A stretch of DNA of 64,000 nt, from assembly GCA_017506865.1 (NCBI GenBank), contig JAFCMP010000501.1, forward strand, positions 1 through 64,000. Reading direction: 5' to 3'. This DNA comes from Tribonema minus (lineage: Eukaryota > Sar > Xanthophyceae > Tribonematales > Tribonemataceae). Positions 312 to 48,241 of this stretch are shown here, piece by piece; within the stretch, counting starts at the first letter, position 1; the number at the start of each line of letters is the position of its first letter. Under the pieces are notes generated by a model. It ran no database searches. It was given only the letters and a program-made list of their open reading frames with translations, and was not told the DNA's origin. A program made the translations under genes and the position numbers.

Positions 312-3300
312 CTTGACCTTGGCTTCGAAGAGGTCCTTCTTGTTGAGGAAGAGGATGGTGGAGCAGCGCTCAAAGTACGGGCTGTGGCAGATCTCACGGA
401 ACAGCATGATGGCCTCGATCATCCTAACGGTAATCAGCAGCGAGCAGTGATGCACACGTTTGATGTGAGCATAAAAGAGTGGCATTTGACGCGTGCAGCA
501 TGCCTCTTTTTCTGAGTCATCGAAGCCTTCTCAGGCCACTGTCCCTGGTCCATCACCTCCTTCAGGTGTCATCTTGCCATTCTCAAGACAAGTATGAAAC
601 ATTCAACGGTGACAGGCAATCATATGTTGCTGAGAGTACTTGCAGTTGCCAGCATATGCGCTAACGTCACACAAATCAATTGCAAACAGGCGACCAGTGG
701 TTGTGAGCGTAGTGCGCAGTGCGTGCCCTGTGCCTGATGTTGTACTCACACCGCAGACACATGGAAGGATGTACTTGAGGTACAAACTAAACTGAAGTCG
801 TTCGTACCGGGAGGCTTTCCACTGAGCAGCGCGCACGTTCGCCATGCATCATCAGTGTTGAGCGCTGCATGTGTGGCAGGACTCTACCAACCACAAGCCC
901 TACTGTTCGTGGTCTGCAAACGGTACTTCAACAGGAAATCCTTGACTACAGGCCCCCGACACCACAATACATCCAGTTCTAGCAGCACACGACTGGCATC
1001 AGTCTTATGTTGGATTGGTGACATTGATGCGTACCTCTGACGCTGCAGAGCAACATGCTAGTGAGCAGCAGCTCTCTACATTGCAAACGGTCGTGAGTTC
1101 GAGCTTGAACATTGACGAAAGGCCGCAACAAGTATGCACGCCCCGCCTCCTGTTCCATGGCTGCTCTTGACGTCCAACAAGGCACGCAACAGGTCTTTGC
1201 GCCTCAAGGACTGCCATACGCCTCAACACATCCCAAGCGTGACGGCTCCTGAGACGACAGTGAAGTCAGTCTGTGCTGCACTTGGGGCTAACGTTTAGAA
1301 TTTTGATTTGAGTCAGTTGGGAGGGCTCAATGAAGTCAGGCAGGCAGTGGTTGGGTAAGGGTTAAGTCGCAACTTAGGGTTAGGTTAAGGAGGTAACATA
1401 TATACACACCGCGTCCAACTGCTACAGCGCTCCTCAAGTCGGCGTCGAAATTTTTAAACAGCCCCCGACTGTACATGGGGAGCGCTGCCACAAGTTTGAC
1501 GGCCGTGACACGGCAGAGCAGCAGATCCGCGCATTAAGCTCAATGCGCTGCTGACGCAGGTGTGTTGCTCAACGCGTGTGTGCTGCGCACTCCAAACTTC
1601 AAAGCTGAATGTTGAAGTACGGCATCGGCGGCAGCGCTCACCGGTTCGTGGCGGCGTCCTCGTACAGCCCCTGGTCGTACTCGGAAAGCGCGGCGACGTA
1701 GATGACGGCGGTGATGTTGTCGAAGCAGTGGATCCACTTCTTGCGCTCGTTGCGCTGGCCGCCGACGTCATAGATCTCAAACGCGAGGCCGTCGATCGTG
1801 TAGCGGTCCACCACGATGCCGCTCGAGCGGATGCGCACGTGCAGCATGTCCTGCGCGGTGGCCGCGTAGCCGGGCGCGCTGATGCGGTCGAGGTCATTGA
1901 AGAAGTAGGACATGCTGTCGACGATCTGCATGCAGGGGGGGGGGGGGGGGGGGGCAAGGGGGTGAAGGGGGGAAGGGGGGGGGGGGGAAGCAGGGAGGGG
2001 GGGGGGAGGTGGCAGTTAAGATGACGGTCCGAACAGGCGCACAGCACAGAAGGGCTTGTGTTGCATGCTGCGGCGTGTCACCAGTCCGTACTTCAATTTG
2101 CTGTCTGCTGCAGTGGCCAGCAGCGCGACCTTCCAAGTTGCATCAGAGGTAGCAGCCGCAGCTGCAGGCGACGCCGGCCCAATCCTCAACTCAGCGCTAA
2201 GCACTGCTGCTCGCCTCACAGCGCTCACCTGGTACTCGTTGCGCTGCGCCCACGTATGTGTGGATATCGTGCCCTGGCCCTACCATAGCGCTGAGCGCTG
2301 CCATTCAGAGCTGCTCACCTAACAAAATGGCCACCTGATACTCTCGTTGAGCAGTGCTGCCTGTCTCACCCGATACTCGTTGTGGCGCGCTCACGTCTGC
2401 TGTATGACGGCGTCATGCCTCAACCAAAACTTCAAACCTGAACTTCAGCGCTGAGCACTGCTGCCTGCCTCACCTGGTACTCGTTGCGGCGCGCCCACGT
2501 CTGCTGTATGACGGCGTCGTGCCAGAGCGCCTTCATGGCGGCGCCGAGGGCCTCGTCGACCTCCGCCGTCTCCTCGACGTAGCGCACCGCGTCGCGCGCC
2601 TCCTTGGGCTGCGCGCACGGCGCAAGGGGCGCAAGGGCGGGGTGAGGAAACGTAGTGATGAGGGGACTAGGGGGGTGGCATTGTAACGATAATGATTAGG
2701 TAGGCGCTGGAGTGCAGTGCGCAAAAGGGTGGGAGTGGTCGGGTGGGAGACGCATCGAAAGTAGCGACGGGGGCGCCGAACCTACTGGGTGGCGAGCAAA
2801 GCGGCTGGTCAGCGTGAAGCAGGGTGCTGGGTGGAACGTGCTGAGCAATGAACACTTGAAGTCGAGCCTCCCTGCACGTCAGGAGAGCGCGACAGCCATT
2901 GCGCGCTTGGCAGGAGCGCCGCGCGCGGCGTCGGCACGATGCTGCTGCGACTTGCAGAGCGCACAGCGGCATGCCTTCTGACGTGTCAGCGATCAGTGGC
3001 AGACCTGGTGGAACCTGGCACTCTGCCATGAGTAAGCCAGTCATTGCTGTCACGCGTGATGCTGCGCCGTCGTTCTATGATATGTCAACCTAGGAAACAG
3101 TTGGTTGCGATTAAGCACGCTGCAATGTATGTGTGATCGCGGTGATCTGGTACCACGCTGGAGCATGTTGAAGTTCTGGCAGAGGCGGCATTGGCAGAAC
3201 AACTCAAGTGCCTCCGAGTCGCCCAGTCATGCGGTGTTGACAGCTCACCACGCGGCAACATGTGCTCTGTGCCTACGCGGCACGAGCGTTACGAATGCTG

Positions 3301-10741: not shown

Positions 10742-13700
10742 CTACCCCCCAAAGCTCTGCCGCGTGACGTGCTGCATGAACTCGGCGTAGTTCATGCCGC
10801 CGCCGGGGAACGGCGCGCGGTCCTCCACGAGGTGCCAGAAGAAGCGGTGCTCGTTCTGCCCGTCGCCCTCGCCGACGACCATGAGCTGCAGGTAGTGCTG
10901 CGCGCGCTCCTCGCGCAGCGCGGCGACCACGGCGTTGACGCGCGCGCACGCATCGCCGCTGCTGCCGCCGGGCTGCGCCGCCGCCGGCAGCAGCGCGAGC
11001 GCGGACGTGTCGAGGCCTTCGAGGGAGGGCGCGCCGATGAGCGACGCCACGAGCGCGCGGTTCGCGGCGCGCCCGACCCACATGAGCAGGCCCACGCCGT
11101 TCTCCAGGAGGAAGATGCCGTCGCTGCGGTTGGGCGTGGGGGGGGGGGGGGGCAAGGGGGGGGGGGGGGGAGTGCAAAGTGAGGATTGCAGGCGTGATGT
11201 GCTTCATGCGCAGCATTGGGGGGAGGGACTGCGCTTGGTGATGATGATGGAGAGGGGGCAGTGATGAGGCAGTCACAGCAGGATGCGGATGCTGACGGCA
11301 GGCACCACATGGGCCGGAAGGTAGGGACGGCCAGGGGGTGCACAGATGTCGTGATGTGTGCAATCAGAAAGCACGACACGCACGGGAGCGATTTGATGCA
11401 GGGACGGACTGCAGCAGGTGGCAGCGCTTTCAAGAGGCAGCGCTGCCCAGCCATGAACAACGCACAGCCCAGCTCTCTGCACGTGCCGCGGGCTGCTTCG
11501 TGAACTCACCAGTGCTGTGTGGCACCGAGACCCAACCCTAACCCTACCGCTAACCCGCATATCACACCATCGCCGCACTGACCTGGTGAGCCTCTCCGCA
11601 GACAGGTTGACGACGGGGGGCAGGCGCACCAGCGTGCTGCGGCCGGCGGTGGGCATGCCCTGCGCGCAGCGAGTGAACAATGACAAAGCGCAGCAGCAGC
11701 GATGGGTCAATTGACGAGCGCGACTTTGATCTGGCCCTAAGATCAGCGCATCCGAGTGACTTGCCATGCTCCGCACCAGTCTGTGCTACTGCCAGCTGCC
11801 AATGCGTGTGGACTGAGGGTTTTGGTTAGCCTCAATCCTAACCCTGTAGCCCTAACTCTAGCCCTGACCCTGAACCCTAAGTGGGCAGATATCAGTGAGC
11901 AATGGTCCCAGCTGTCCTTGCCGCTTCTGCATTTGGGGCATGCATGCTCTACGCACTGCCTGCTGACGGCACGAAACGAGTCAGCAGCATGGGCAAACGC
12001 CTTGCGGCGCTGTTGGCAGAGCCACCCCTGCAAACATGTAACCTATGCAAGCAGGAACTGCAAACTGCAGAGTCCGTCTGGATCACTTCTATGTATGTAG
12101 TCCAAGCTTTGAGGTATGATGCTCGTTTACAGGCAAACTGTAAAACGATGGAATGGGACCCAACTCTAATCCTAACCCTGTCTCTCGCACCATTCCTAGG
12201 CGCTCGCTTTGACTCCTGCAGCCTCCGCCAGTGTCACTGATCACGGTCCGCGGTCTGATCCGCGACTCTTATTGAATTGTGCGTTCTTGAGGCATTCGTG
12301 CAATTAGTTGGCAACAACCACAAGCACCCAGGTGTGCGCCTCGGCTGCCGCCGCCCATTTGCTTACCACAGTTCAAGTTTCAACCTGTGACGCTCATCAA
12401 GTCGTGCGTTCTTGACATGCTGATGCAACAAGCTAACGCACCAAGCTGGCAACCACCACGACATGCCCAAGCGCGTACGCTGCGGCCTCCGCCACAGACA
12501 CTTGCTTAAGTGCTCGTTGCAAAGTAGAAGTATCACTCAAGTCGTGCGTTTCTGATATCGCCGGTGCAACGAGCTGATGCCACAAGCTGACGCAGGTAAC
12601 GAATCGGCGCGTACCTCGGCCGCCGCGGCCTCTGCCATTGTCACTCGTTCAAGTGCTCATTGATGTCGTACTGAAATATGACTCAAGTAGTGTGTTTCTG
12701 ATATTGCCGATGCAACGAGCTGATGCCACAAGCAGACGCAGGTAAAGAACCGGCGCGTACCTCAGCCGCCGCGGCTTCCGCCGAGATCGGCGTCCCCGCG
12801 TCCGCCGGCATGTCGTGTATGCTGAACATGCGCGGGTAGATGAAGCAGCGCGAGTCGTCCACGGGCATGTTGACCAGCTGAGCCATGATGAAGGCGCGCT
12901 CGTCGGGGCGGATCTCCGCGCCGCCGCGGAACGCGGGGTTCTTCTGCAGCGCCATGCTGTACAGCGGGAGGAGCTGCGGGGCGCGGCGGCGACGGCGACA
13001 GTTGCGGCGGCGGTAGCGGCGGCGGCGCGCATACGTGATGAGCTCGCTTCAGTGTCTTCATGATTGGAGCAGATCATGGCGAGGTGCTGCACAGCAGTGT
13101 GAACTAGATGGCGAGTTGCAAGGCAGTGAATGCGCGCAGCTTGTCGCGCAGCCGCGGCAGCACGGCGTCAACACGCCGAGCCACTACATGGCCAACACGA
13201 CTACAGCAGTCCAATCGCACCCAGGCGCCGCGACAGAACGCAGTCAGCGCCCTTCCCGCACGCGCCAGGCTTCGGACCATGACACAGAAGTATTCTGGCT
13301 CCTGTGGATATGGTGGCACTGTTTGACTCGTGGCCAATCGCCGCAGCAGCGGCGACCACGGTTATTGGCAGAAGGCATGTGCGGCTGTGTAACCACACCT
13401 TGTCACCTAGAAAGGCCTCTGCGTGTGATTCGTTTCCACGACATCATCAGCGCACGACACGCAGCAGCGCTCGACCGTGCGCGCACCTGGATCGCTTCCG
13501 GCATGCCCGCGGGCTGCTGCTGCGCGCCGCCGTAGCCGCCGTAGCCGCCGCCGCGCGTGGCGCGCAGGATCTCGACGCAGACGTCCTGAATGCGCGCGCG
13601 CGCGGCGTCGAGGCCGGACGTGAGCGCCACGTCCAGCGCCTGCTTGGCCACCAGGTTGCACAGCGCGTCGATGCTGACGCTGTTGAAGATCTCCTGCGGG

Positions 13701-16700
13701 GGGGGGGGGGGGGGGGGGGGGTGATTCGAGTCAGGCCACGGTATGTGGTGCTTTCATGCGTCCGCATATGGTGTTCCTGTGTCACATGCCGTGTCTGCCG
13801 GGGCGTGCGCTGTCAACAAGCGCCCGTACAGGCTGTCATACCGCCAGGGTTTGACATCTGAAAGTCAGGGTCGCAGTTTCAAGTGGTGAACACACTAGAG
13901 GACAGGTAATGAGCTTGTGTGAGTAGTACATCCGAAGCGAAATTAATAAAAGTACATCCAGGCCACGCATCTGTCCACCTTGGCTCCGATTCTGGCTGAA
14001 CTGCTCAGGCTATGTCAATCCTGCTGCCGCTGTCACAGCATCCTAACAGCTACATATCGCCACTCGACACATCGTCATCATGCTGTCCTTGTGCTCAGCT
14101 CACCCTCCCCCCCCCCCACACACACACATCTGCCTGAGCCAAAGGCATGCATCCCTTACTGTGTTGCAGAGCCCAGCGCCAGTGCCCACAGTTCACCTGT
14201 GCCGAGGGCACTCGCGCACAGCGCAGCGCGCACGCCGATCCGCTCGCAACGCGCATATGCATGTGCAGTTCCAATGCAAAGCGCACTCTTGGCGATACAA
14301 TGCTTATGCAGAGCACTGGTGACAGTCGCAAGCGCCGGCGCACGTGCGCGTGTGAGCGGAGGGCACGCTGCCGGCCGCGCCCGACAGCAACGCGCGTCCA
14401 GCAGTCGGCAGTGGCATGCGCCGCGACCACGCGCAGCAGCAGCAGCAGCAGCAGCAAGCGGCAGCAGCAGCAGCAGCGCTCGGCGCACCTGGCAGACGGT
14501 CTTGACGGGCAGAGCCACGTTGTGCACGCGGATGCGCCGCTCGCCCGTGCTGGTTGTGTACAGCAGCGCCGCCTGCGGCGTACAATGTGAGTCGCCAGTC
14601 ACGGCGGTGTACAGAGTGAGTCGTGAGTCATAAGTTGCGGGTCATGCTGTCGATGGTGCGCACCGCGCGGCCAGATCTGTGCAACCTGACGTCGTTCTGA
14701 ACTGATTTCGGGAGGCTGAAATATGAGCCTTCCCCATGCCTTTGACACCTGCACGCTAGCACCGAATACAGTGCTGGGGTATGCACTGCGCCGGCAACAC
14801 CTGCACGTCGTCATTGACACCCTGCACATGCGAGCACGCACGCACGAAAACCTACATGCATACATACATACCTGTATGCTGATGACGCTGGCCACGAGGA
14901 CCTGCTCGTCGACACATGCGAGCACACGCACATGTACATGCATATACCTGTATGCTGGTGACGGTAGCCACGAGAAATTGCTCGTCGGCACATAAGAGCA
15001 CACATACCTACATACCTTCATCTACATAATACCTGTATGCTGATGACGCTGGCCACGAGGACCTGCTCGTCGTACGCAAACTCCACGCCAAAGACGCTGT
15101 CGGGCGTGCAGTTGGGGAGCGCCAGGAGGTCCGTGCCGCGGATGAAGTAGTTGCCGTAGAAGTTGGACATTCGCAGGCCCCTGCGTACAGATAATGGGGG
15201 GGGGGGGAGGGGTGATATGCATAGGTCAGAACTACGTGTGATGGCCTGAGAAGAGCATGATGGGGGGGGGGGGGGGGATGTGTATCGATAGGTAAGGGCG
15301 ATGTGTGATGACCGATCCGGCGCGGTGCATGCGCTGCAGTGGGCGCGAAAGGGGGTGCGCCGACGCGCCGCAAAGTTGAAGTTGGCACGGAAGTGTCGGA
15401 GCGAAACGTGTCAACGCTCGGTGCAGCGCGGGGAGGCGGCGGTGTGCAAGCGCGCTGCACAGTTAAAATAAAACCACACTTCAGAGTCGAAGTTGGCAGA
15501 GAGCAGGCGCATGTGCGGCAGCGCTCACCTCGTCGCGCGCACCCTCATGACGGCCTCAAAGGCGGTCGCGCGCGTGAGCACGCGCGTGAGCTCCGCCTGC
15601 AGCTTGACGCCGTCGCGCTGCACGTTGAAGCCTGAGAGGCGTCGAGCGTTGCAACGCAGCAGAGGACGCAAGGAGCGAAGCGGCTGTGCGTCAGACCTAG
15701 CAAATGCGCTGGTAAGGGTCAAAGGTAGGATTAGTCAGGGTTAGGGGCTGCATGGGCTGGGCTGCTGACATGCCGCGCTGCACGTTGTAGCCTGCGAAGC
15801 GGCGAGCGTTGCAGCACGGCAGAGGATGCAAGGGAAAGCGGCTGTGCATTAGACCTGGCAGGAGCGCTAGTTCCTAGGGACGAAGTCACTAGGTCTCCGT
15901 TTGCACATTGCGCAAAAGACCCAAAATCGCAATAACTTCTGAACTAGAAGCCTGTTTCTCATCCTGTTTGGTGCATGGTACAGACCATATTGTTAGGTAT
16001 AATGACGATGCAACAGATCTGCAGCAGACCATGTGTGTGATGCTGTGGGTAATTACAAAGCCTCAAAAGTAAGGTTTATTCGGATTAAAAGAGTTTGCGT
16101 GTCTGTGTGTGCACCGAAAACCCGATATATATCGCCGGTATTCATGTCACATCATGAACAGGCAAGATTGAGGTGATCATGCGACAGAAGCTAGTGGTGG
16201 GGCTAGCTTAAAAATGAGGCGCGCACAGCACGAAGGAGCAGCCGTGCGGCACAGCTTGCGGAGGACAGTCTGTGGCAACACAGTGCAGCTGCCTGAGCGA
16301 GGCTAACGCAGCACGCGAGAACTGTTGCCGAGTGAGGTGCAGCAACAGCCTTGCTTCACGGTAAGCAGTGCTGAGCCACGTGTGGCACCAAGTGCTGGCG
16401 CTGACTAGCATCACGGCGAATAAAACGCATGGTATGGCGGGGAAGCAGCAACTTGGTGTGGCTTGTGAGCTGAGCATGGTAAGGCTCAGCTACACGTGTC
16501 TGCCAGCATAAGCCCAGTGCAGCAGATGAGGAAGCTTTACCCATGGCGTGGGCTGCCTGGACGGACGGAGCGTGTCGTGTTCCGACGATGGGCTGCTGTA
16601 GGCAATGAGGTGATGCTCCTTGACTAGCAGGAGGAGCAAAATACTGGTGGTTAAGGTGACACAGATATGCAGCAATTTTTGGTCAGTTGACTTGGCGACC

Positions 16701-19700
16701 CATCAGCAATCAACCTCCACAAGTGGTACTTGCGACAGTTCGCGACGGCGACTGGCCTGGCTGGCTGAAGTTGAAGCCATAAGTTAACGTATGAGCCCGA
16801 GGCTTGCAGAGCTTTATGCTGTCAAATCGGGGAAGTGAGCAGCAGACTGTCAATTGACTCGGCGACCCATCAGTCATGAACTTCTGTGGCTAGTACTTGC
16901 CAACTGTTTGCAACGGCGACTGGCTTGGGCTGGCTGCAGCTGAAGACATATGCAACATGCGGGGCTTGCAGAGCTGCCAGTGCATGCTGTCATACTGGGC
17001 CATGTATGCAGTGAGCACGCAGCAGGTTGCGGTTGGCTGACTATGAGTATCAAACAGCCATGACCGGTCCTTGCCGACTGTTTACAGTGGTGACTGGCTT
17101 GGGCTGGTTGCACCCGAAGACGTGATCCAGCTTTCAGGCTTGCAGAGCGGCCTGAACTAGCACTGAGTGGCACCCTCGCGGTATGCCGCAAAGGGTACCA
17201 AGGCTTTTACCTGCATGCCACTGCCATGGTCGTGGCATAGCTGCTTCTGGCAGCAGGTGCCATGAAAATGCATTCTTCATAAAGGTCAGGTGATACCTCG
17301 ACGCACTGGTGTCAACAGCATCATGTGGTATGAGAGCAGCTGAGGCGCAGACAAACCTGGCCCAGCAGGACGTTACAGCAAACTTCTGATGTTGCCATGA
17401 AACCTGCATGGAGTAAGTGCATTCCTCTGGGCGGTGTATGCGCTTGAAGCTACATAAAAGTGATACCAACAAGAATCTGGCTGAACTCCTGCTTTGCCAT
17501 GCTTGGTGTGCAATGAAGCAGGTAGAGTGTCTGCTGCTGTGCATTGACAACGGTGTGCCTGCAGACATGTCTGCAAGGCCAGCTTGCATTGGCAACATGT
17601 TTGCAATACAACAACCCCGACGTCAAATTTCCACGGCTTGTGAGCAAACACTGTGACAATGCTCTTGTTGATTTTTTCTAGCACCAAGGTGCACTCTACT
17701 TGCGCGCGTCCCTAGGACTCTCCCCCAGCCCGCAGGGCTATTATACCAAGAGAGGCTGTCGCGCTGCATGTTGACATTGATGTTGTCCCTCCGGGCGTCG
17801 AACGTCGCAACGCAGCAGGGGACGCAGGGACGAGATGGCCGCACGTCCGAACCTGAACGCCCGAAGAAAGGAAGGCTGATGTTTGGCCTGACTGCATCGC
17901 GCTCAGCGCAGCGGCGCTGCGCAAAGCTCCAAAGAAGCACTTCAACTGCGATGACACCGGCGTGTACGCCGGCTGCGAGCCCGCTGCGGCAGGCGCTCGC
18001 GACCTCAGGTCAGCGGTGCAGCGCGGCAGGGTCTCAGGGTATGAGACGGCTACCTTTTTTTTAATTGCCAGGAGCACCAATGAGCGGAGCAGCGGGTGCC
18101 GGGCCTGGGTCACACAGCAGTGCTGCTGACACAGCAGTGCTCAGCGCGCGCGCATCTACTGCGCGCAACGCACGGCCCGGGCGGGGTATCATTTCTGCGG
18201 GGGTAATTATCTTGTCAATGGCATACCGCAGCAGCTACCTTCTGTAGAGATTTAGCGCACCTGGGTAGTAGAACAGCTGTCCGCCAGTCTTGCTGGGGAG
18301 CTGGAAGAGCGTGGCAACGTCCATGTACTGCGCACCGCACAAGAACAGGTCCACGCAGATCTGCAGCTTGCTGAAGTCCTGGGCCTTGTTCTGCGGGGCG
18401 GGGGGGGGGGGGGGGGGGGGGGGCACCACCGGGTTGGGTCAGGAACATGAGGTGTAGGTGCGTATTGATTCACGGTGACGCGCGTGCCTTTGAGGACGCG
18501 AAGAGTGGGCCCTTGACGGTTGAGCGGCGTTGGACGTGAGAGCCATGTGCTGGCGTGCGGTCAAGTGACGCAGAGCGTTGCCGACGCGTCAGGATCCCGA
18601 TGGATGCGGAAGCCCACGCCTGCTGCAGCGCTATTTAAGTACATAGTGCGTCGACTCCTGCACTTGATGCAAAGCTCACAATATCAACAGGCGAGTTCCT
18701 CCTGGCTGTGCCGTCTTCTGACCCACCCAACATGGCAACGCATGACCGCAGGTTGCCTCCAACCTCAACAGCATCTACTGCACGCCGGTGACGCTCCCTC
18801 ACCTGGTACCAGGGCTCGTCCGGCTTGAGCATGAGGTGCTCCTTGTCCGTGCCCAGCATGACCGCAAGTTGCCTCCAAGTTCAACAGCACCCACTGCAGG
18901 CAGTGACGCTCCCTCACCTGGTACCACGGCTCGTCCGGCTTGAGCATGAGGTGCTCCTTGTCGGTGCCCAGCATGCGCGGGTTCTCGCGGTGCTTGAGCT
19001 TGGCCTCGCCCAGCGACGGCAGGTTCGCGCAGAACACCACCATCTTGCCGCCGAGGTGCGCCTGGAGCGCGCAGGAGGACGCGCACGAGGGAGTGTGTCA
19101 CGGCGTGAACGTGACCTGATCCGTTGAAGTTGAAGTTATGCCCACCCACTCAACGTCTTCCGTTCTTCAACTCATATAGCCGTTAGGTTGAAGAGGTATG
19201 GGGCTAGGGCTAAGGTTAGGGTTAGGGCTAGGGTTAGGGTTAGGTCAGCGCAGCCGCATTGCACCGCAGAGGGTTCAGGCAGACCGCCCTCTGTCTCGCA
19301 GCAGCCCCGGCGCGTTCCCCGCACGTTCCTCAGGACGCGCCGTGCCGCCACCAAAGATGATCTATTCGCGCGCAGCCTAATCAGCAATCGCCCACACAGC
19401 GGACGCGCGTAAACGCTCGTGAGCAAAGTTTTGGGTTAGGGTTAGGGTTAGGGTCAACCCTGAGCGCAGACAGCGCACCAGGGCGCCTGATCCTGCCACC
19501 TTTCCTGCCTGCAGAGGCACCCGCCAAAAGTGGCTGCGCACGCGGCGCGTGGCTCGCGATCGAAGAGCAGCAAAGCAGGAAAGACGCGATTGCACGCTGT
19601 CGGTCCTGGGCACCGGCCAAAGCATCAGCTGTACGCAGGCGGCAGCAAGTGACTCACCATGACCTTGCCGGCAGCGTTGAGCGCAAGGCCGAGCGCGCTG

Positions 19701-22700
19701 ATCACGGACCAAGTTCAACAAGTGGCTCACCATGACCGAGCGCGCTGTCGACGGACCAACTTCAACAAGTGACTCACCATGACCTTGCCGGCGGCGTTCA
19801 GCGCGGGGCCGAGCGCGCTGTCCACGGAGCGCGCCGCGCGGTGCATCTGCGGCAGCGCGTCCAACAGGGCGTCTACCACGGCACGGCTCTCCGCGAGGTT
19901 CACCAGCAGGTCGTCCGGGCACGGCAAGAAGAGGTCGCTGATGTCGCTCACCACCAGCATCTGCGCGGTTCGAAGAGAGATGGGGTTCGGGCGAGCATCA
20001 GGGTCAGGGTTTTCTTGTTCAACACCAATGTTATCACGTCCGGTGACAAAGAATGTACTGCGAAAACCATCAAGGCATGGCCCGCAAACAGTGCTCAACA
20101 CCCGAGGCAGAGCATCGCCGCTGCGCCCAACGTTGGAAAAGGTCAGGCCTTGCCAACGTCACATGAAGTTGCATGTTGGAATGCACCGTGGACAATGATT
20201 CAAAGGCCCTCATCTGATGGATACACCAGCACAATCCAGCAGACAGAGCAGCTACAGATGACCGTCACAACAGCGAGGCTGCAGACAGGCGGCCAGGCCC
20301 AAAGCGCAGCTTCTGCATAAGAAGCTACGCGGGTGGCGACCAATACATGTTGCAGCAAACAGGGTGCAGCAGACTTGCCTGCGGCTGCGACAGTGTGGAC
20401 TTGAGGTTGTAGAAGTGGATGGAGCCGTCAAAGGTGATGAGCCCGAACTGCGAGCGCTCATCGCCGGGCACCCTGGGGCGTCGAGTGAAAAGTAACAGAA
20501 GTGCTGGTGGGTGAGATCAGCGAGTCGCGAGAGCACGCACGCCAAGCGTGCCGGCGAGCACGCAGCAGCGTGCCCCGCAGCATACATGCACATGCATGTA
20601 CTCCGAAGTATAAAAAATGGGAAGCGAAGTATACAGGCGCGTGCAGTGAGCAGCGTGAGGGCCGGGGCGTTAGCCTGTGCGCGCGTTGAGCACTGAGGCC
20701 AGTGTCACTTCACTTGAAGTATGCCCTCTGCCAAGCGTGTGCTGAGAAACAGCTGGGGAACTGTTGCAACTGACATGCAGAGGTGAAATGCACAGTGCTC
20801 GCAATGCTGTCAACACGAAACCCCTGCCGCTTCTGCTTTGAAAACAGTGCTGTGAGCATGCAAACCTATTCGTCCTGTTGTACATCAGCAACCTGCGCTC
20901 GACAGCGCTCAGCTCTTCGCACCCGCGCCCTGCTATGCGCCTGGCGCCCTGTCTTACTTGCCCCGCCCGCAACCAATCTCACACGCGCGCATACAGAGCA
21001 GCTGCTGACGACTCGTGCGACACGACAACCACGCCAACAAAACACATCAGACACGCCCTCTGCGCACCTGTCCAGGCACGCCTTGCGCATGCACATGTCG
21101 TGGCAACAACAACACGTCACCTCGTGCCTTGCAGCAACTCCGCCCCCAAATGACATCCCAAGCGCGCACGCATACAGAGAGAAACTGCCGATGAGTCGCG
21201 CGACGCGACAACCTTTTAAGACACACAACACAGTTAAAATGCCAACATGCGCCCGCTGCGCACCTGTCCAGGCACGCCTTGATGGCGGCGACCGCGGCCG
21301 CGACCATGCCCGTGTTGACGGCGTTCGCGCTGACGTCGATGACAAAGAAGTACACGGGCGCCACGGGCGGGCGCACCATGTACTCTGCGGGCGCCTGGAT
21401 CTCGACGGACCCGTACGCGAGCTCCGGGCGCTGGTCGCGGTCGCGGCGCATGCCGTTCGCGTCGAGGTGGCAGAAGTAAGATGTGGGGACGTCGTTGACC
21501 ATGCCGCACACGTTGCAGCGCCACTGCCGCCCGTTGTTCATCCAGCTGCGCGCGACGCGCGTAAAGGGGGGGGGGGGGGGAGGAGGGGGGCGGCATCAAT
21601 GGCGAGTCTGAGTGCCAGTCTGAGTGAGAGTCGTCGAGTCTGCGATGTTGGGCAGTGTTGCGGTGCGGCAGGGCGGCGCTGCTCGGTCGATGCGACCTAG
21701 CCCTAACCCTAAGATATGGCGGCCGCACGTGTTGGTACTGCTACACGGCTGCATGCTGCTGAACACTTGCGCGTGTGCACAACATGGCACTGCTCGGATG
21801 TTGAGTGCGAGACGATCAGACGGGCGTACCGCGTTAGGCGGTTGCGCGCTCGCGGGGCGGGGGTGGGGAGGACCGCATCTGCAGTGGGGGCGAGTCTGCA
21901 CTGGCTGGCGCTCTTGGACGCAAGCGGCCCGACCACAAGTAGGCAAGATTGAGGCAAAGTGTCCGCGTGCAGAGGGATAGTGCGCATAAACTTAACGCTC
22001 AAAGGTTCGCATCTGCGGTGGGGGTGACACTGCACTGGCTGGCGCTGTTGCAAGCTGGCGGCCAAACCGCAGGGGCAGCACATTGTGAGTGAAGTGTCAG
22101 CGTGCAGCGGGACAGTGCACGTGAACTTGACGCCGCAAGATATCAGCGAATGGCCACGCGCGAATTGCCGCCTTGTCGCTGATGTTCCCAGCTGCTTGCG
22201 GAAGTGAATAGTGCGGCTACGGCTAGATGTGCTTCAGGCACGGCGGCAGCGACATGTGCAAATCTGCAGTGCAGTAATGGCCAATGCCGCGCCTGGAACA
22301 AATGCCAGAGCCGTCGTACAGCGTGTGAGCAGCAGCGCTCGACTGCACACTGCCGCATGGCGATGGACGCCATGCCGACCTAACAATGATGAATGACTTC
22401 ACTTTAGACCTTCAAGTATGCGCAACACACACGACGCGACCCCCCAGCTGCAGATGCGTACATGCACGCGACACACAGACCTGCCGCAGGCTGCACAGCG
22501 CATGATGGTGTGTATGTCCCCACAAAGCAATGCGCTAGCGACGGTCCTGCAGAGCATGGGGCGCACCTGACGAACGGGTTGATGTACGTACGGCAGCGCT
22601 TACAGCGCACGATGCCCTGCGAGCCAAAGTTGACCACCTCACAGCCGCCGTACTGCCGCAAGGAACACGCGCAGGGCAACAGCATACACAGCAGATCAGA

Positions 22701-33098: not shown

Positions 33099-36000
33099 AT
33101 GTCCTTCCGAGAGCTGAGAAGTGAGCACCACGCTCAGCAGGGCACAGGCAAAAAAAGCTCCTTGACTGACTGTCGTGTGCAGGTCTGACTGCTCGCTGCT
33201 GCTTTCGCTGTTTGCAGATTTCACGGAGATGATGCGGGCATTGGGCTACCCAAGACTCATATCCGTAGACAACTTCCGCACTCCGAACTTCGAGCTCGTA
33301 GCAGACATCCTGTACTGGTTAGTCAAGCGGTATGATCCAGATGTGCCCATCAGGTGAGGATATGACAACAGTGACTGTACCTTCATAGCAACTGCCATGA
33401 TCTGTTGCACTGCACTGGGCGCTGATCACGTACCTGTCCCGATTATGGTGAGCTGCCGGCTTGCATGCAATGCCGCATTCACCTTCACTCTCACCTGCTG
33501 CACTGGCAGCACCAACAGCCCTCAGCGTCCAATGAAGCCGTGACATCCGCCAAGCCAGGCGAGTCTCTGAAAGACGACCCCCCCACCCTCTCCAACCCCC
33601 CCCAATGCAGCGACAACATTGAGTCCGAGGGCGACCGCGTCGACTTCCTGCTCGGCGCGGCGCAGGCGATGGCGGCCAAGGCGCACATCCGCATGAACGC
33701 GCGCAAGCTCTACAGCGCGGACGGGCACGCCGTGAAGGAGCTGCTCAAGCTGGCGACGGTGCTGTACCGCGCGTCGCGCGCGGAGGAGGACGCTGCCGCG
33801 GAGGGCGAGGACGCGTCGGACCCCGCGCCGCTGGCGTCACAGGTGCAGATTGAGTTGAAGCTTTCAAGGGTGGGGGCAAAGCTCTGAGTTGAAGTAATCG
33901 GAGGGGTGGGCCGCGTACGAGCCCTGTCTCGCAGCCCTGCTCAGTACTGTTTAAATTGACGTCGTGATGCGCCAGGGCGCATTCGCTGGTGCGCACAGTA
34001 CTCCTGCGCATTGCGATTTGAGTTGTCAAAAGGGCAAGCCACGTACGAGCCCGGCTCTCAGGCTCGGTCATGCTGCGGCTCCGTGTTGCAGTGCTCAACA
34101 GGGTGGGGTCGTCACCGCAGATGCTGGCGACACCGCGGCGGAACCGGCTGCGCTGGTGGTGAGGAGCTTGTGTGCTGGGCGCGGTGCGCAGCGCCTTTGT
34201 CGCAGTGCTGGCAGGAGCGGCATCGACATGCCACACCACTGCAGCACGCCGTGGTGTGCAGGGGGGGAGACTGCTGTCGGCCCGCAAACTCTTGCAAGCC
34301 GCTGCGGTGCAGATGTGCTGGCGGCCTCGTCTATGGTTGATGTCAGCAGAGGCCTGCGCAGTGCCTGGCGGCAGTGGCGCTCTCGTGCTGAGCTGCTGGA
34401 AACCCTGTGCTGGTGTCACGGACGGGTTCGCGAGATGCAGAGCGGACGACGTGCCGTATGTACACCACCATGGCGCCGAGCAGCAAACTCACCCCGCACT
34501 GCATAGCACTGGCACTGTGCGGGGAGCGGGCATCAGCTCTCACGCTCAACCGCCATGCTGCATGCCCAACATGCGCTTTCATGGGCACCGCATTCAGCGC
34601 CTGCAGCCAGCGGGCCACGCGCGTGCGCACTTTTTGCGGGCAGCGCCACACGTGGCAATACGCGCTACCTCCCCCCAACTCTCTCGCCTCATCCGCTGCT
34701 GCATCCCCGCCTATCGCCGCGGCGGCAGCGGCGCGCGCAGCCCGTCCCGCGCTCCCGACGACGCCAACCACACTCTGACCGCTCACGTGCCTCCGCCACT
34801 GCCGCCGCGCGCCGCCACGTGCCGCCGCCCCCCCCCCCCCCCCCCCCCCCCGCAGCTCGGCAGCGTCAAGGAGGCGCGCGCGCTGGCGGCGGACATCACG
34901 GAGCGCGGCGCGCGCCTGCACGACCTCCTCGGCCGCGAGCCCGCGGCGCGGCGCGCGCGGCTGCGCGCGGCGGCGTTCCTGGAGGCGGCGACGGCGGCGG
35001 GCGGCAGCGGCGGCGGCGGCGGCGCGGCGGCGGCGGAGATGGGGCACGTGGAGGGGAGCCTGCGCGAGATCGTGGCGCGCGCGCGGGAGAACCTGGCGGC
35101 GCTGCAGCGGCAGACAGCGGACCTGGAGGCGGACGAGCGCGCGCTGGATGCGCGCATCAAGAAGGCTCAGGTGAGTAGGTGCTACGTGCGCATGGGCGGT
35201 AGTTGGCTGGTACTGGATCGCGGGGCTGTGTGAGGCGGTGGGGGCGCGATGTTGAGACGTGCGGCGGCGGCAGCGGGCGCAGCAGATGGCAGCGCGCACG
35301 TGGCCGGATGCTACAGGGCCATAGCTTGTGTTGTCACGCTGTTGTCGATCAGCGCATTGTTCAAACGGGCGGTGGTCGGCCTGTACGGGAGCGCGCGGCT
35401 GCGTGCGGCAGCGGCGGCGTGGTCTCAGCATGCGCATCATCAGATGCTGCAGACAGGTCGCTTTTGTGTTGCACAGTACGTGTCGGCAGACCCTGAGGCG
35501 GCGCGACGCGCGGCGCATGCGCGCATGGAAGTGACGGACGACAATGTCGCTGTGCACGAAGCGGTTCGTGCACTTGGGTGATCCTATACCTTATTGAGCG
35601 GTACAACACGCAGCCTGCGCAACTTAGGAGGCGCTTCTGTCGTGTTCACAGCAGTTGTGCGAATGATCAGACCTTCAAATGTGCTCACTTGTGCAATGCG
35701 CGCCACGGGCAGCATGGAGGCACTCCAGTTGCGCGGCAGCCTGCCGTACTTTCGCGCAATGTTGCAGGAGTTGTGTAATCGTCTCCCAAATCACTTTGCA
35801 CGTCGCGACCACCAGCGTCAATGTCTTTTCACCGAGCATGGCCTCACTATTCAACACACTCGGCATTCGTTTGTTGGCGTGCGCAGGGCGATCTGGAACG
35901 CAACGAGAAGCGGCTGCGCTCACTCGAGACGCACCGCCCCGCATTTGCGGACGAGCTGGAGAAGCTGGAGGCTGAGCTGCAGCGGTATTACGAGGTATGT

Positions 36001-39000
36001 ATGGCAGCACGTGTCATGAGGGGCACGGCTCGTGACGCGGTTGAAGTTTAACTTGTCCATGCGGCCTGCGTGCGGCCGTGTGTGTTGCCGTGCGTGCGCA
36101 CAGCTGGCGCCAGGACCGCCGGCTGCGGTAGCAATGCTCAGCAGTGATTGCGCATATTGAGGTTGGAGCACTTCACGTATGACGTGCTCATGTGCAGCCG
36201 GAGACGTGGCTGCGCGAGTGTTGCACCGCTCAGAAATTGGACAGTTGACACTTAAGAGCTGGATGCAGAGCCGAGCTTGCGTGAGCACCACGCTTCAGCG
36301 AAATGGAGGTGGAACGATGTGCCGTTCAGCAGCGCGGCCGCTGACCCGGAGCAGGCCGCCTTGCGCATGCCGTTGTCCGCGTCATGCCGTGTGTGTGCTC
36401 GCACGTGCACATGGCTCAGAAGTCTAAACTACCAACCAGCATGAGCTGGAACGTTCTCCTAATCGCGCAAGAACAATCGACTCAGTAAAGTCATTTTGGC
36501 CCGGGTGTCGCGCACTGCTCCCGCGTCAGGTCTACATGGTGCGATTCAGGAACCTGGACTATCTGGAGCACGAGCTGGAGCGCTACGCGGAGGCGGAGCG
36601 CGCGGAGATGGAGGAGCACAACCGCAGGCGCAACAGGAACGCGGAGAAGGTGAGTCACGGTCACGAGTTATGAGTCTTGAGTCGAGTCGCTGTGAGGCTC
36701 CGGAGTGTGCGGAGATGGAGGAGCACAACCGCAGGCGCAACAGGAACGCGGAGAAGGTGAGTCATGAGTCACAGTCACGAGGCCTGAGTCTTGAGTCGAG
36801 TCATCAACAGGCGGAGCACGGGGAGGTGGAGGAGCACAGCTGCAGGCGCAACCAGAATGCGGAGAAGGTGAGTCACGGTTACAAGTCATGAGTCCTGAGT
36901 CAGGTCGCCAACGGGCGGAACGTGCGGAGATGGGGAGCACAACCACAGGCACAACACGAATGCGGAGAAGGTGAGTCGCAGTTATGAGTCATGAGTTTTG
37001 AGTCGGGCCACCAACAGGCGGAGCACGGGGAGGTGGAGGAGCACAACCGCAGGCGCAACCGGAACGCGGAAGGTGAGTCGTGATCATGAGTCATGAGGTT
37101 TGAGTCGAGTCGCCAACAGGCGGAGCGCGCGGAGGCGCAACGAAAACGTCGAGGCTGTGAGGTGCGCTGTGCGTGAAGTAACGAGTGGAGTCATGATTCG
37201 AGTCGCCACAGACGGGCTAGCAGGCACCCTACATTCATCTCTCGCACGCACCGTACGTGTCACCTTTCAGGTCCGAGTTGCGTTCGGAAGCGCCGAGAAG
37301 TGCGGCGCGCTGAGCTTTGGCACGTGGTCTGCTACCGTATGTATGCTCATTAGCATGCTCAATCATCATGTATATCAATGCTGCCCTCGTGTATGCGCGA
37401 TTCTGCAGCTGCGAGCTGCACCCCCCGTGGACACTCCACCATAGGGCCGCCCCCCCCCCAAACAGTGTCCAGCTGAGCGCTGCTGTCTTCTATAACTTGA
37501 TGAGAAGTAAACCGAAGCGCAGCGGTGCTTCGCTCAGTGACTCTGCAACTGTACATGCAAGGTCAACTTTCAACGCAACTGTAAATGCGACGCCAACTTG
37601 CAACGATCTTCTGTTTGGCCGGTAGTGATGTCGCGCTGCAGAAACACGCCCTCCGCTGGCATGATTGCACGCTTGCACTCAGGCCGGTATTGTGTGCGTC
37701 AACATCATGCGTCTTTCCCCCGATAGAAACGGCGCTGCAGAAACGTGCGTACTGCGGGCATGGTTTTGCGGTCGCAGTGATGTGCGCATCACGTGCTTCA
37801 GCATCGTGTGTGTGTGTGCGTGTGTGTGCTGTGTGCACGTCGCCGCAGGTGCGCAAGGAGCAGCTCAAGCAGTTCATCGGCAGGGAGGCGAGCGAGGCGG
37901 CGGTGCAGGAGGAGCTGCAGCGCAGCAAGTGAGAACACGGACCTCCTCTGCACGTCCACTTGTTGCTGGGCGCATGGCGCACACGCGTGAAAGTATTTGT
38001 CCAGTGGTCAAGTACCTTTGAGCGGCACGTGCCGCGAACGAAAAATGAGCGTTCACTGCTGCGCCCAGGTAGCGTTGCGCCGCGCTGCGCAACAGTCGGA
38101 GCATCGGGCTACCAGGGCTTATTCACGCTGTGACGTGATTATGCTGTGGCAGCCTGCAAGCAATGTACAAGATGTAGGCCAAAGCTTAAGATGTGCCAGG
38201 TGCGCGTGACGACACGACCCCTCGACTTCCACATGACATGACGCTCAAGCCCAGCTTTATGGCAGCACGTGGAGACACGAGAACTTTCACGAGCCGCCAG
38301 CAACGCCATCCCTTGGACATCGAGCGCTGACACAGGGCATAGGCTGCACTTCAGCGTTGGTATCAGGGTCAGGGTCAGACGAATGTTAGGGCCAGGGCCA
38401 GACTTTGCACAGCTGTTCAGGCTGCTGACACGCTTGCTTGGTCCTCGCGTCAGGCCCAATGGCAGCGCTCAGGAGGATGCGCCAGGCCGCGCCCCCAGCG
38501 CCGGCGCCACTGACCGTAGGGATCAGCGCAGCCGCGCCGCCAATGGCGGCGGCGCAGGCGGCGGCGGCGGCGGCGGCGGCGGCGCGGCGCGGCCGGCCGC
38601 GCGGCGGCACAGCAGCAGCGCCGCCAGCAGCGGCAGCGACATCAACTCGAGCCGCAGCGCCACTGAGGTGAGATGGCTAGCTTGTGAACCAGAGTAAGTA
38701 TGAAGGTCAGAGTCCATTGCAGCTTCATCGCTGGGCTCACTTTGGCGACGCAGTGGTCTTCCAGCGCCGCTGCGTCCAGCATTATCTGACATGCTTGCAT
38801 TCGTTCACCCATGCACCGCGCCCATGGCAACCGCCAAAGTGAGATTGGATCCTGTGCCCTGCTCCCAAGTGCGCTGTCTACAGGACGAAGTGAATCTCAG
38901 CAACAGCGCGGCAGGGTCCAGCTCGTAGACTCTGACTCTGAGCCGGACTCGTGTCGGGTGCACGATGCAGCTGCAAATGCACACCATGCGCACCTCCTCC

Positions 39001-39746: not shown

Positions 39747-39866
39747 GGCGGCGTTTGAGTGGTTGTCGTTGCGACACTTTCAGACTGTCATACGACATGT
39801 AGATTCCTTACAGCTAGATGCCAATCATCTGGGCTTTTTCGCGCCCTGAGCGAGAATTAATAAAAA
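39747..39866 (+). mobile_element. 5'-truncated copy of the RLE retrotransposon (3' 120 bp)
   Basis: Matches bases 47757-47878 of the full-length element almost exactly and ends aattaataaaaa followed by gtac. Downstream gtaccag (39867-39873) also occurs at 39728-39734, twelve bases before the insertion, suggesting an imperfect target duplication with filler. Confidence 0.85.
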
Positions 39867-41287: not shown

Positions 41288-42340
41288 CGTTAACGCCGAA
41301 AGGCGTGGCAGCGAATGCGGCTGGTTTGGTGGGTGGGCTGGGCTGCAGGGCTTGCAGGAGCTAGCACCAGCGGCCCCCAGGTGATGCCAGCGTGCGTAGC
41401 CCCTTCGAGAGAACTTCAAACGTGTGGTGGTGTCTCGGAAGCCCTGGCTGGCGTGCGGAGGAGGGACAGGGAGCGGCTTGGCGTGCTTGGAGAGCAAGCG
41501 GAGTCGGCTGCACGCCACGGCACCAACCACAAGTTACTAGCAGCGGTAAATGGCAATATCTTGTCAGGCTTGCAGCCTGCGGTGAGCCGTGACCTCGCTC
41601 ATCAAGGAGGCGATGCTTTACTTAGTTATATAGCCTTTCTCTCTAGCGTCAGCGCCTGGCGCCCAGTGACTCCCTCTGCTTATCTCTATGATATCGGGGT
41701 TCACGTAGATAGCCACAATCTCCAGTTCAGGGCCCATCATGGTGACCTTGGCCTGCATGAAAACTTTGAGATGGAGTCTGCGTGGAGCTGGGTGGCCCTT
41801 AGAAGGGTCTGTCTGTGGGGGGAGAGTCTTGCAGCTTTGTTTGGTATCCCTGCTAGTGTGTGGGGGACAGTCGCTTGCGGATGCTTTGTTGGGGGTGATA
41901 TGGGAGGCCCGGTGAACCACCGTCCCGCTCATCAAGGAGGCGATGCTTTGCTTAGTTATATAGCCTTTCTTTCTAGCGTCAGCGCCTGGCGCCCAGTGAC
42001 TCCCTCTGCTTATCTTTATGATATCGGGGTTCACGTAGATAGCCACAATCTCCAGTTCAGGGCCCATTATGGTGACCTTGGCCTGCATGAAAACTTTGAG
42101 ATGGAGTCTGCGTGGAGCTGGGTGGCCCTAAGACGGGTCTGTCTGTGGGGGGAGAGTCTTGCAGCTTTGTTTGGTATCCCTGCTAGTATGTGGGGGACAG
42201 TCGCTTGCGGGTGCTTTGTTGGGGGTGATGTGGGGGGCGGGGTGTGGCGTGCAAGCTTTGCATGCTACATCCAAGAGTGAGAACAAGGCGACACACCTAC
42301 AACATGGCATTTCCACAGCCACAAGTGGAATATAATAAAA
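41285..42340 (+). mobile_element. Second, different insertion ending ataataaaa-gtac
   Basis: This 1.06-kb block lies between gtacaaaa (41210-41217, running into the A71) and gtacaaaa (42341-42348) and ends in ataataaaa, so it behaves like another target-primed insertion at a GTAC site. Its interior is two copies of a 330-bp unit. A 321-residue frame (41315-42280) spans both units, but the opposite strand is also largely open, so coding status is unsure. It might be a non-autonomous element or a 5' part of another family. Confidence 0.5.
41597..42235. repeat. 330-bp tandem repeat, two copies
   Basis: Unit 1 41597-41926, unit 2 from 41927, beginning gctcatcaaggaggcgatgc. Copies differ at only a few bases. 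The length is a multiple of three (110 codons), so the frame SYIAFLSSVSAWRPVTPSAY continues through both. Confidence 0.9.
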
Positions 42341-42344
42341 GTAC

Positions 42345-45300
42345 AAAATTCCTCAATATACTAGTAGGCCTCCACGAGATGCGGATAGGTATGTAGCTGT
42401 AGCATGTAGCACCATGGCGTAGCAGAGATCATGAAAAGAATATCATGGCGGCGGCGGGAGGCCCGTATTGCCAACTCTGAATCAGCGCAGAAATGCAAGG
42501 AATCCGATCTAGCGTGCGCACAAGCGCAGGATATTAGCACCAGTGCTGCAGATGGCAATGGCGCTTGTCAACAGGACGATGGCACGAGTGGCAGCAGCAG
42601 AGCAACTGGAGACGGACGCGCAGCGCACAAACGCAAGAGGGTACAGAATGACGGTTGGTCAATTTCCGATCAAACAGGCGAAGGGGAGCACACGGGCGGG
42701 CAAAGTGCAGTCAAGCGCTCTAGAACAGGTCATAACAGTCTGGAACAGCAACGTCTGATGCTAGACGACGAAGCTGGAGGTGGAGGCAGTGCGGACCCGG
42801 AGTACAAGTGCAACTTATGCGACCTCGTGGTGAAGAAGGGCATGTCGCTGCTCTCGTTACAGCAGAGGTTAAACGCCCACATCGCGGCGAAGCACCAGCG
42901 CAAACACCACAGTGGGACAGCAACAACGTTCCTGGAGCGCTCCGACCTCAGCACGTCGCACTTGCAAACCATCTACACCGAGTGTGCCTTGTGCAAAAAC
43001 CTGTTTCATGCCAACAAGACATTCAGAGTGGACAGCAGCGATGCCAGCGCGGGCAAGCACTGCCGCAAATGCAGGCCTATCACTTCACCCGCTGCAGTGG
43101 CGGCAACATTGTCAACAACAGCATCAGCAGCACCGCTAGCACCTGATGCATCGACGGCAACAGCTACCACGTCGCTGCCACAGCAGCAACCGGCGTGCAC
43201 ACCCATCGGCAACCCCTACGCAAAGGGACCAGCGCACGCGCAGCAGGCACCTGCTGCTCAGGCTGGTGGCAGCAGCTCCTCCGGCAGCTCAAAGAGGCCG
43301 GAACGCGGGGGCAGCAGTGCTACACGAGGGGGTCGGGGTCGCAGTGGAGGGCGCGGACGTGGCAATGGAGGACGCGTTCGCAGCGGCAGCAATGATGCAG
43401 ACATCAGCAGTAGCAGAGCGACTAGCGGCAGCAGAACCGGAGGCGGCAGCAGCAGCGGTGCCGGCGGCGGCAGTGCAGCCGGTACTAAGGACAGCGGCGC
43501 TGGCAACGGCCGCAGCAGTGATGCCAGCAGCCGCAGCGGCGGTGCTAGCAACAGCGGCAGTGGCGCGCGAACTCAAAACGGCCGCGGTGGCCGTGGCAGC
43601 GGTCGCAGCAGCGACAGCGGCGGACGAGGCTGTGGTCGTGGCGGCCGCGGCGGCGGCGGAGGGGGCCCCAGAGCGGCAGGTGCGGCGACAGCAGCGGCAG
43701 CGCCAGGCCCTGCAGGCGCAGCAGGTGGGGCAGGTGGGCTTTTCACGTGGACCATCTCAACCCCCGCAGTCGCAGCAGTGCTTGACAGCATCAGCCTCGA
43801 TGAGCTGTGCAAGCTGCAGTTCGCGACAACTAGAAGCCTTGCTAGACCACGCAATCGTCGCTATGTGGGAGCTGCACTGGAGAACGCAGCAACACATCTG
43901 TTGGCACACACAATGACGATGTTCGTCAATGCGGCGCGGGAGCCAGATTCCGCAGGGCGGGTGCAGCGACTGCAAAGATCCACGATTCTACACCACCTCA
44001 TGCCATCACTCATCACCTCCACCGATGGCGCACCTGGCATCACTCGCTCCGACAGAATCAGAATGTTGGCACGAGGTGAGCTTGACCGGTTGGTGCCAGC
44101 GCTCCTCGCACACGCGCGTGCGCACCGGCGCTGGCGCGCGCGCCAGCAAACGGAGGCAGCGATCAACGCCTACGTCCTACAGTGCATGGGCACACGGGGG
44201 GGGCTACAGCAGGCAGCGCGTTTCCTTCAGCCCAAAACGGTGGCGATACCTGATGATGACTGCTTTGCCGCCATGCAGTCCAAACACCCCCCCGCTGCGC
44301 CAGGGGAACAACTCCATGAGCTATCCGGCATGGTTGATCAGCTTGTGGCGAAAGCAGCCGACATGCCAGCAGAACTCAGCCTGTTACAGGGGGAGGGAAT
44401 TGAGCCAGAGACGGTTGCCAAGCTCATCCAGCGAGCAAGCCCTTACAGTGGAGCAGGCCCATCGGGGCTGCGCTACAGCCACCTGCAGGATGCGCTACGC
44501 ACAAGCTGGGGACGGCATGAGTTTGCTGCTGTCCTCACACGGTGGCTTCAGACCGTTATGCGGGAGGCTGCGCGGCTGCCGGATGCCTTCTGGCAGTTGC
44601 ATGGCGCGGGGCGCCTGACGCCACTTGCAGAACAACAGGAAGATGGTACAGCTAAGCAGCGGCCCATCGTTTGCGGCGAGGTGCTGCAGCGACTATGCAC
44701 TTCGGTGTACGTGGCAGACCGCAAAGACTTCCTGGCGGAGCTCCTTGAGCCAGACGGGCAGTATGGGGTAGCCGTCTCAGCAGGAGCGGAGAAAGCGGCC
44801 ATGGCCGGCAAACTCGCGTATGAGCTCGGTCACTGGCAGTTCATGCTGGACCTCAAGAATGCCTTCAACATGGTGTTCGTCCTGGCGGCAGCGGAATGGG
44901 TAGCAGCACAGCTGCCGGACTTCCTCGACTACTTCATCGGCACATACGTTCGCACTCGGCCACGCCTGCTGTTCCAGCACGTTGACGGCTCCACGCGCAT
45001 CATCATGTCTCAGCGCGGGTTTAAGCAGGGGGACCCCGCGGCACCGATGCTCTTCTGCGGCGCCATTGCTCAGTGCTTGAAACGGTTCAATGAGGCGGCG
45101 GCTGCGCAGCGCGCGCGGAGGCGGATGGGCGCCTACATGGACGATGCCAACGTCCGAACAGGCGCTTGCACGCTGACTCAGGATGACATACAGGCGGTGG
45201 CGCAGCTCAAACAACACTTTGCGGAGGTGGGGCTGGAGCTAAACCTCACCAAGTCACGCGCGCTGCCTGGCAGGGGGCATGTGGTGACAGACCACGAGCG

Positions 45301-47878: not shown

Positions 47879-48089
47879 GTACAAGTACCGGTGCTACCAG
47901 TTAACGGGGCATCTCTGCATCCTACTGTTTCAAACCTGAAAAGTCTCAAAAATCTGGAGAAAATCCCCCAAGTACTTGACCCGCATACTTCACGGTTAGC
48001 AAAGTAGCCAGTTGGTGGTCGGTGCTGCATGTGCGATGCGCAAGTGGGGACGTCCACGCTTGCCTAATCATAACCCTAGAAGTACGTAT

Positions 48090-48233
48090 GGACCCCGAGA
48101 TGCCATTTGGCGGCGGCGGCGTTTGAGTGGTTGTCGTTGCGACACTTTCAGACTGTCATACGACATGTAGATTCCTTACAGCTAGATGCCAATCATCTGG
48201 GCTTTTCGCGCCCTGAGCGAGAATTAATAAAAA
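48090..48233 (+). mobile_element. 5'-truncated copy of the RLE retrotransposon (3' 144 bp) with 8-bp target duplication
   Basis: Matches 47734-47878 with one T missing. gtacgtat lies at 48082-48089 and again at 48234-48241. Confidence 0.9.
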
Positions 48234-48241
48234 GTACGTAT

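Follow-up and report, generated by a model that had tools for sequence, protein, structure and literature searches.

Intron growth is usually put down to transposons and drift. Introner elements lengthen or create introns repeatedly across a genome as copies of one dispersed family, and a minisatellite in an intron is a tandem array of several copies of a unit of about 100 bases. Internal gene duplications were reportedly found by Gao and Lynch in 2009 to be common; as cited in PMC4974935 and PMC3443670, that work deals with duplications creating or multiplying introns. In the potato RdRp gene, a duplicated segment crosses an intron-exon border, and a formerly exonic segment is now intronic (PMC4974935; review PMC3443670). 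Genes are thus already known to undergo internal tandem duplication, including duplication across a single intron-exon border. Tandem and mutually exclusive exons are reported as head-to-tail exon copies with splice sites (PMC9013439, PMC6071210).

The array analysed here lies in a 64,000-nucleotide stretch of DNA of the yellow-green alga Tribonema minus (the window; contig JAFCMP010000501.1) and consists of five units of about 105 bases and one remnant, 3' of an exon of CLUAP1/IFT38. It resembles the ATP2A1 and potato RdRp duplications in being a short tandem duplication in a gene, but it lengthens an intron already present and shows no new one, its unit runs across the donor and was multiplied several times, and the pattern recurs at roughly one in seven of the predicted donors sampled in Tribonema. 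Unlike the duplications attributed to Gao and Lynch, as cited elsewhere, the copies are partial exons within an intron and show a donor bias. Like tandem exons they run head to tail, but only the exon end is copied, without an acceptor of its own, the frames break and no coding constraint is seen. In contrast to an intronic minisatellite, the unit straddles the border of a coding exon, and the arrangement recurs with unrelated sequences at the borders of other genes. Unlike introner elements, the CLUAP1 array matched only itself in the whole assembly (158 Mb), and no dispersed element behind it was found in this search, which skips simple repeats. The earlier note knew of no named element of this kind; internal tandem duplication is the closest known process. 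A literature search, covering titles and abstract starts with most subscription papers outside it, returned no description of such arrays at exon edges from Tribonema or related algae and did not show partial exon copies with donors in introns at such frequency in one genome.

The CLUAP1 array and its units

Joining the predicted exons between 33229 and 39287 gave a 437-residue protein that matched the solved CLUAP1 chain 8bd7_L (E 7e-76). From within the exon at 36530-36649 into the intron that follows, Tandem Repeats Finder, run on the window, placed an array at 36592-37134 (score 527, period 103, 77% matches, 5.2 copies). Beyond it, a sixth copy in a decayed state reaches to about 37211. 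A repeat search likewise gave five 100-base copies at spacings of 107, 111, 103 and 104, and chance was excluded by self-alignment (E 4e-98). The features are as follows.

36530..36649, + strand: CLUAP1 source exon, ending in the 57 bases that make up the exonic part of unit 1
36650..36655, + strand: donor GTGAGT, judged ancestral, with homologous proteins contiguous across the junction
36700..36756, + strand: exon-end copy of unit 2, 57 nt, identity 0.93 to the exon, followed by donor GTGAGT at 36757
36811..36867, + strand: exon-end copy of unit 3, 57 nt, identity 0.86, AG directly 5' (ATCAACAG), donor at 36868
36915..36970, + strand: exon-end copy of unit 4, 56 nt, identity 0.86, GG and not AG directly 5', donor at 36971
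37018..37072, + strand: exon-end copy of unit 5, 55 nt, identity 0.89, AG directly 5' (ACCAACAG), donor at 37073
37119..37211, + strand: remnant sixth unit, exonic part shortened and broken (identity 0.37), without GTGAGT
37849..37928, + strand: next CLUAP1 exon, with its acceptor 5' of 37849

GGTGAGT occurs in five units, with donors at 36650, 36757, 36868, 36971 and 37073. The exon-derived part measures 57, 57, 57, 56 and 55 bases in units 1-5, unit 4 being frameshifted by a one-base deletion, and the part derived from the intron start takes up some 45-55 bases per unit. The earlier note had described six tandem copies of the exon end and donor, with divergence rising away from the true exon. 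The array itself was confirmed, with five donors kept and the sixth copy decayed, but the steady rise was not found: in units 2-6 the exonic part matches the true exon with an identity of 0.93, 0.86, 0.86, 0.89 and 0.37, and intronic identity is 0.66, 0.71, 0.69, 0.71 and 0.53. Derived changes are common to units 3 and 5, which suggests that several units were duplicated together or that units exchanged sequence. In unit 2, the exonic part (36700-36756) has 0 changes in 42 bases and the intronic part (36757-36810) 12 in 45, a contrast which may mean that the unit and the true exon have exchanged sequence in part.

Although tandem repeats are easily misassembled, an assembly artefact is an extremely improbable source of the array: units 2-5 differ from unit 1 by 7-34% and carry unit-specific indels, and like structures are found on many contigs.

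Splicing outcomes and the public CLUAP1 model

The join 36649/37849 produces no insertion relative to 8bd7_L or to the proteins of Chrysoparadoxa, Ascophyllum and Phaeothamnion. Because these homologous proteins lack an insert there, donor 1 (36650) is, on protein comparison, the ancestral donor. The earlier note had expected a later donor to insert copies of an ER-rich segment. This did not hold: with donor 2, 3, 4 or 5 in place of donor 1, the intron is read through to a stop at codon 48 (counted from the exon start), which rules out a longer coiled coil by this route. Nineteen residues could be added only by splicing a unit as a separate exon, with AG before and GT after. Among copies 2-5, AG stands directly 5' of units 3 and 5 only and is missing from units 2 and 4, and acceptor plus donor were not found on every copy. 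The frame expected of tandem or mutually exclusive exons is not kept either (56 nt in unit 4, 55 nt in unit 5, unit 6 broken). No coding constraint was detected in units 2-5, where 7, 9 and 5 changes fall at codon positions 1, 2 and 3, respectively.

The best database match to the CLUAP1 protein was the T. minus record P0121, which is the same except for inserted stretches and a misaligned part beside them. P0121 carries three unit-derived segments between the two CLUAP1 exons, as would be expected if the units were real AG-copy-GT cassette exons adding to the coiled coil; the AG directly before units 3 and 5 and the 57-nt exon copies of units 2 and 3 are also in keeping with this. Such exons are nevertheless improbable. 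Substitutions are not enriched at third codon positions, unit 4 has a frameshift and no AG, the homologues lack the insert, units 2 and 3 would be separated by an intron of 54 nt, and the public Sec24 model P0241 skips the arrays of its own gene. Moreover, a gene finder trained without RNA also called pieces overlapping the CLUAP1 units exons, so transcripts need not underlie the public model, which may be an ab initio call too. P0121 has other stretches without counterpart in the homologues examined: 35477-35563 and about 37275-37337, within CLUAP1 introns, are read as exons there and are probable annotation errors. At least one public protein model (P0121) contains intron copies as exons, and counts of exon repeats or of coiled-coil length taken from such models would mislead.

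Recurrence at exon borders

Further duplications at exon borders were found in the window, five of them in the Sec24 gene, whose protein equals the T. minus record P0241 at all 643 aligned residues. The matches to P0121 and P0241 identify the genome as that of T. minus; a green alga (Haematococcus), suggested at first by GC content and TTAGGG repeats, was rejected.

18740..18975, - strand: Sec24 duplication, unit 115, across the donor of exon 18918-19061; junction unbroken in both Sec24A and the public model
19643..19828, - strand: two copies, unit 120, at Sec24 donor 19778; junction unbroken in both Sec24A and the public model
14824..15072, - strand: copies at spacing 76-164 at Sec24 donor 15033; junction unbroken in both Sec24A and the public model
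20963..21281, - strand: copy at spacing 177, 73% identity, at Sec24 donor 21264; compared with the public model
12218..12782, - strand: copy at spacing 126, 69% identity, at Sec24 donor 12761; compared with the public model
2180..2503, - strand: exon-end copies at donor 2474 of a putative exon, called by prediction

P0241 has no extra copy at the five duplicated junctions (donors 12761, 15033, 18918, 19778 and 21264); one residue differs at donor 21264, which was taken as a codon split by the intron. Sec24A (3egd_B) aligns without gaps across three of them (15033, 18918 and 19778). A perfect 104-base tandem duplication at 27685-27893 overlaps a predicted Sec24 exon (27852-27955) that is missing from the public Sec24 model; either this exon is false or the duplication is very recent. 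A telomere-like GGGTTA array (19201-19244) lies within a predicted Sec24 intron. Elsewhere in the window, a reverse-transcriptase-like frame (1779 aa, named by eye) has a 330-base tandem duplication (96%) 5' of it, the two together occupying 41580-42244 and 42431-47770. Identical repeats of 124 bases start at 39747 and 41059, and positions 47723 and 48079 mark the two copies of a 160-base repeat (96%).

Recurrence was counted in 354 kb, comprising the window and 29 other 10-kb pieces from other contigs (L002-L030), which were picked by contig number and fixed offset and not by random draw. Exons were predicted by a small self-trained model and checked by homology for a few genes only; in a Pfam check of seven predicted proteins, six matched a family and that of L030 had no match. 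Predicted exons shorter than 40 bases or wholly within a repeat cluster were removed before profiles and site counts (93 of 338 in the repeat-coverage profile). Site counts scored same-strand copies of the exon end within 1.5 kb downstream, with wrong-side and antisense copies as controls. Doubtful calls include the donor cluster at 47723-48237 of the window, in a retroelement-like region, the exons 54726-55001 and 56121-56198, rich in simple sequence, and the acceptor exon L017:3529-3617, itself an exon-end copy.

The sample held 92 direct-repeat clusters. Those running from an exon into the downstream intron numbered 32, against 10.2 by random placement (0 of 1000 placements reached 32), and those from the upstream intron into an exon, at the acceptor, 15 against 10.7. 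Intron-only clusters numbered 21 against 44.4, exon-exon clusters 9 against 6.2 and others 15 against 20.4. Among the 23 clusters of at least 85% identity, 9 were at donors (2.5 expected), 2 at acceptors (2.8) and 7 in introns (11.1). Without the window, donor clusters still numbered 23 against 8.0 (0 of 1000 placements as high) and were present in 13 of the 29 pieces; acceptor clusters numbered 14 against 8.4 (fraction of placements as high, 0.044). A same-strand exon-end copy lay downstream of 34 of the 242 predicted donors (60 copies; wrong-side 4, antisense 3), and an exon-start copy upstream of 20 of the 255 predicted acceptors (37 copies; wrong-side 7, antisense 1). Introns with an exon-end copy were longer (median 934, n = 23, against 551, n = 201; p 0.007). 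Together with the cluster counts, this upholds the proposal that tandem duplication across exon borders is a recurring accompaniment of longer introns. Exon-edge copies make intron growth countable and allow the question whether splice-site DNA is preferentially duplicated to be tested directly.

The locus richest in exon-edge copies was the FolD (methylene-tetrahydrofolate dehydrogenase) gene of piece L017 (G000:C46:20001-30000; 344-3617), whose protein matched both tetrahydrofolate dehydrogenase families. Exon-end copies follow three of its donors, up to six at one, and exon-start copies precede two acceptors; the predicted chain adds a fourth donor and one more acceptor, the third, which is a copy in its own right. 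Long C runs stand just 5' of acceptors, also of exon-start copies (34828-34851 in the window; near 1340 and 1515 in L017), and may be the pyrimidine tract.

Donor excess, decay of the copies and origin of the arrays

Part of the raw donor excess is ascertainment, because duplicated sequence can be recognised for longer when its source is a conserved exon than when it is an intron. Copies of single 40-mers were profiled with introns shorter than 300 bases left out. A downstream intron copy was found for 2.1% (3/140) of the 40-mers at exon positions -80 to -41, 12.4% (22/178) of those formed by the last 40 exon bases, 7.3% (13/177) of those formed by the first 40 intron bases and about 4% of those deeper in the intron. 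At acceptors, an upstream copy was found for 6.9% (12/174) of the 40-mers of the first 40 exon bases and about 3% of those in the intron. Strong copies (score at least 26; 112 of 202 introns used) numbered 18 for exon-end, 9 for exon-start, 7 for intron-first, 7 for quarter-point, 2 for middle and 4 for intron-last 40-mers. Direct-repeat coverage, taken over 202 introns, showed no peak at the donor: it stood at 0.16 over the final 25 bases of the exon, at 0.10-0.17 along the intron and at 0.07-0.09 next to acceptors.

With exons masked, 17 of the 55 intron clusters touched a donor, against 7.9-8.0 expected (p 0.001-0.002), and 8 of 55 touched an acceptor, against the same expectation, which is no excess. 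The donor figure was 12 of 39 against 5.5 (p 0.006) without the window, and 10 of 35 against 5.0 (p 0.02) when L017, the FolD piece, was also left out. At identities of at least 85%, 7 of 16 clusters touched a donor and none of 16 an acceptor. The donor excess after masking is about two-fold, modest and based on predicted exons. The earlier note would be refuted if such arrays were no commoner at splice sites than elsewhere, and the outcome differs between the two borders: donors bear the note out, with an excess that survives masking and removal of the window, and acceptors show a weak excess that does not survive masking.

These figures bear on the idea that duplication is blind to the donor and strikes anywhere in genes, the preference for edges arising from ascertainment and from removal of within-exon duplications. 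Interior intron 40-mers are indeed also copied downstream at about 4%, acceptors fall to random expectation once exons are masked, and copies anchored in the intron diverge equally in both parts (below). The idea is still rather unlikely, given that the masked donor counts remain above expectation with and without the window and FolD, and in the most similar clusters.

The fate of the copies was followed in 48 copies from 29 exons. Relative to the true exon, about 10% of exon bases, 7.7% of GT bases and 27% of intron bases beyond +7 were changed; of the 45 copies with an aligned GT, 38 had it intact, about as often as neighbouring exon bases, and no special conservation of GT was detected in this pool. 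The description of the copies as decoy splice sites is fair, but it implies no conservation of the sites in the pooled copies. Selection could in principle have kept spare donors, extra U1 sites aiding the splicing of long introns, and GGTGAGTC is present in all five good CLUAP1 units while the flanking intron parts are 29-34% off unit 1. Such selection is nevertheless very improbable, for in the pool GT changed like the exon bases beside it.

Copies and true exon differ most at the third codon position (15% against 8-9%). Between copies, the differences at positions 1, 2 and 3 were 16.1, 14.1 and 18.0%, with little pattern, and since the third-position excess is nearly absent there, it was attributed to synonymous substitutions that the true exon itself has undergone. 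Copies found by anchoring in the intron differed by 13.5% in the exonic and 14% in the intronic part (12 of the 17 copies found), compared with 37% for unrelated intron aligned by the same procedure. Of the five dropped, three had 0-5 aligned exon bases, the alignment apparently having slid back on the source, and two had an exon identity below 62%. Conservation of the exon copies beyond neutrality, which the exon-anchored contrast of about 10% with 27% might have suggested, was rejected in view of the equal intron-anchored values. The copies decay without measurable selection for or against splice sites.

Duplication is direct, repeated and border-spanning at many predicted exon borders, and the CLUAP1 copies have no visible coding constraint. 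The CLUAP1 array is probably a product of recurrent, mostly neutral tandem duplication across exon-intron borders, enriched about two-fold at donors. The duplicated unit would reach from the last 57 or so bases of the CLUAP1 exon to about 45 bases into the intron. With the upstream donor staying in use, extra units would come to lie within the intron at low cost and decay, and each round would lengthen the intron and leave exon-like pieces with GT, and sometimes AG, edges. The contrast between the two parts of CLUAP1 unit 2 exceeds the prediction of a simple neutral history and counts against this explanation, as do the third-position differences between copies and true exon, the copies read as exons in P0121, and the dependence of the counts on predicted exons and partly on ascertainment.

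The donor excess most likely has one of two sources. Donor-proximal DNA might be duplicated more often, for example by transcription-linked breakage or slippage, or, on top of a general exon-edge excess, acceptor duplications might be partly weeded out by selection, the AG of the upstream copy being usable first. That 5' splice sites are themselves duplication hotspots, where transcription or splice-site recognition (e.g., nascent RNA-DNA hybrids) would copy the border into the intron, is unlikely. It is compatible with the data, because there is a donor excess at least as strong in the most similar copies, and no excess of masked acceptors or of inverted repeats. If true, the splicing signal would mark where introns grow.

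Inverted repeats showed no excess at donors in the 354 kb (3 of 23 clusters against 2.3), and no common motif was seen by eye in the listed duplication edges. Local inverted repeats within exons, in the window and L002-L030, were above random placement (9 of 23 clusters against 1.9).
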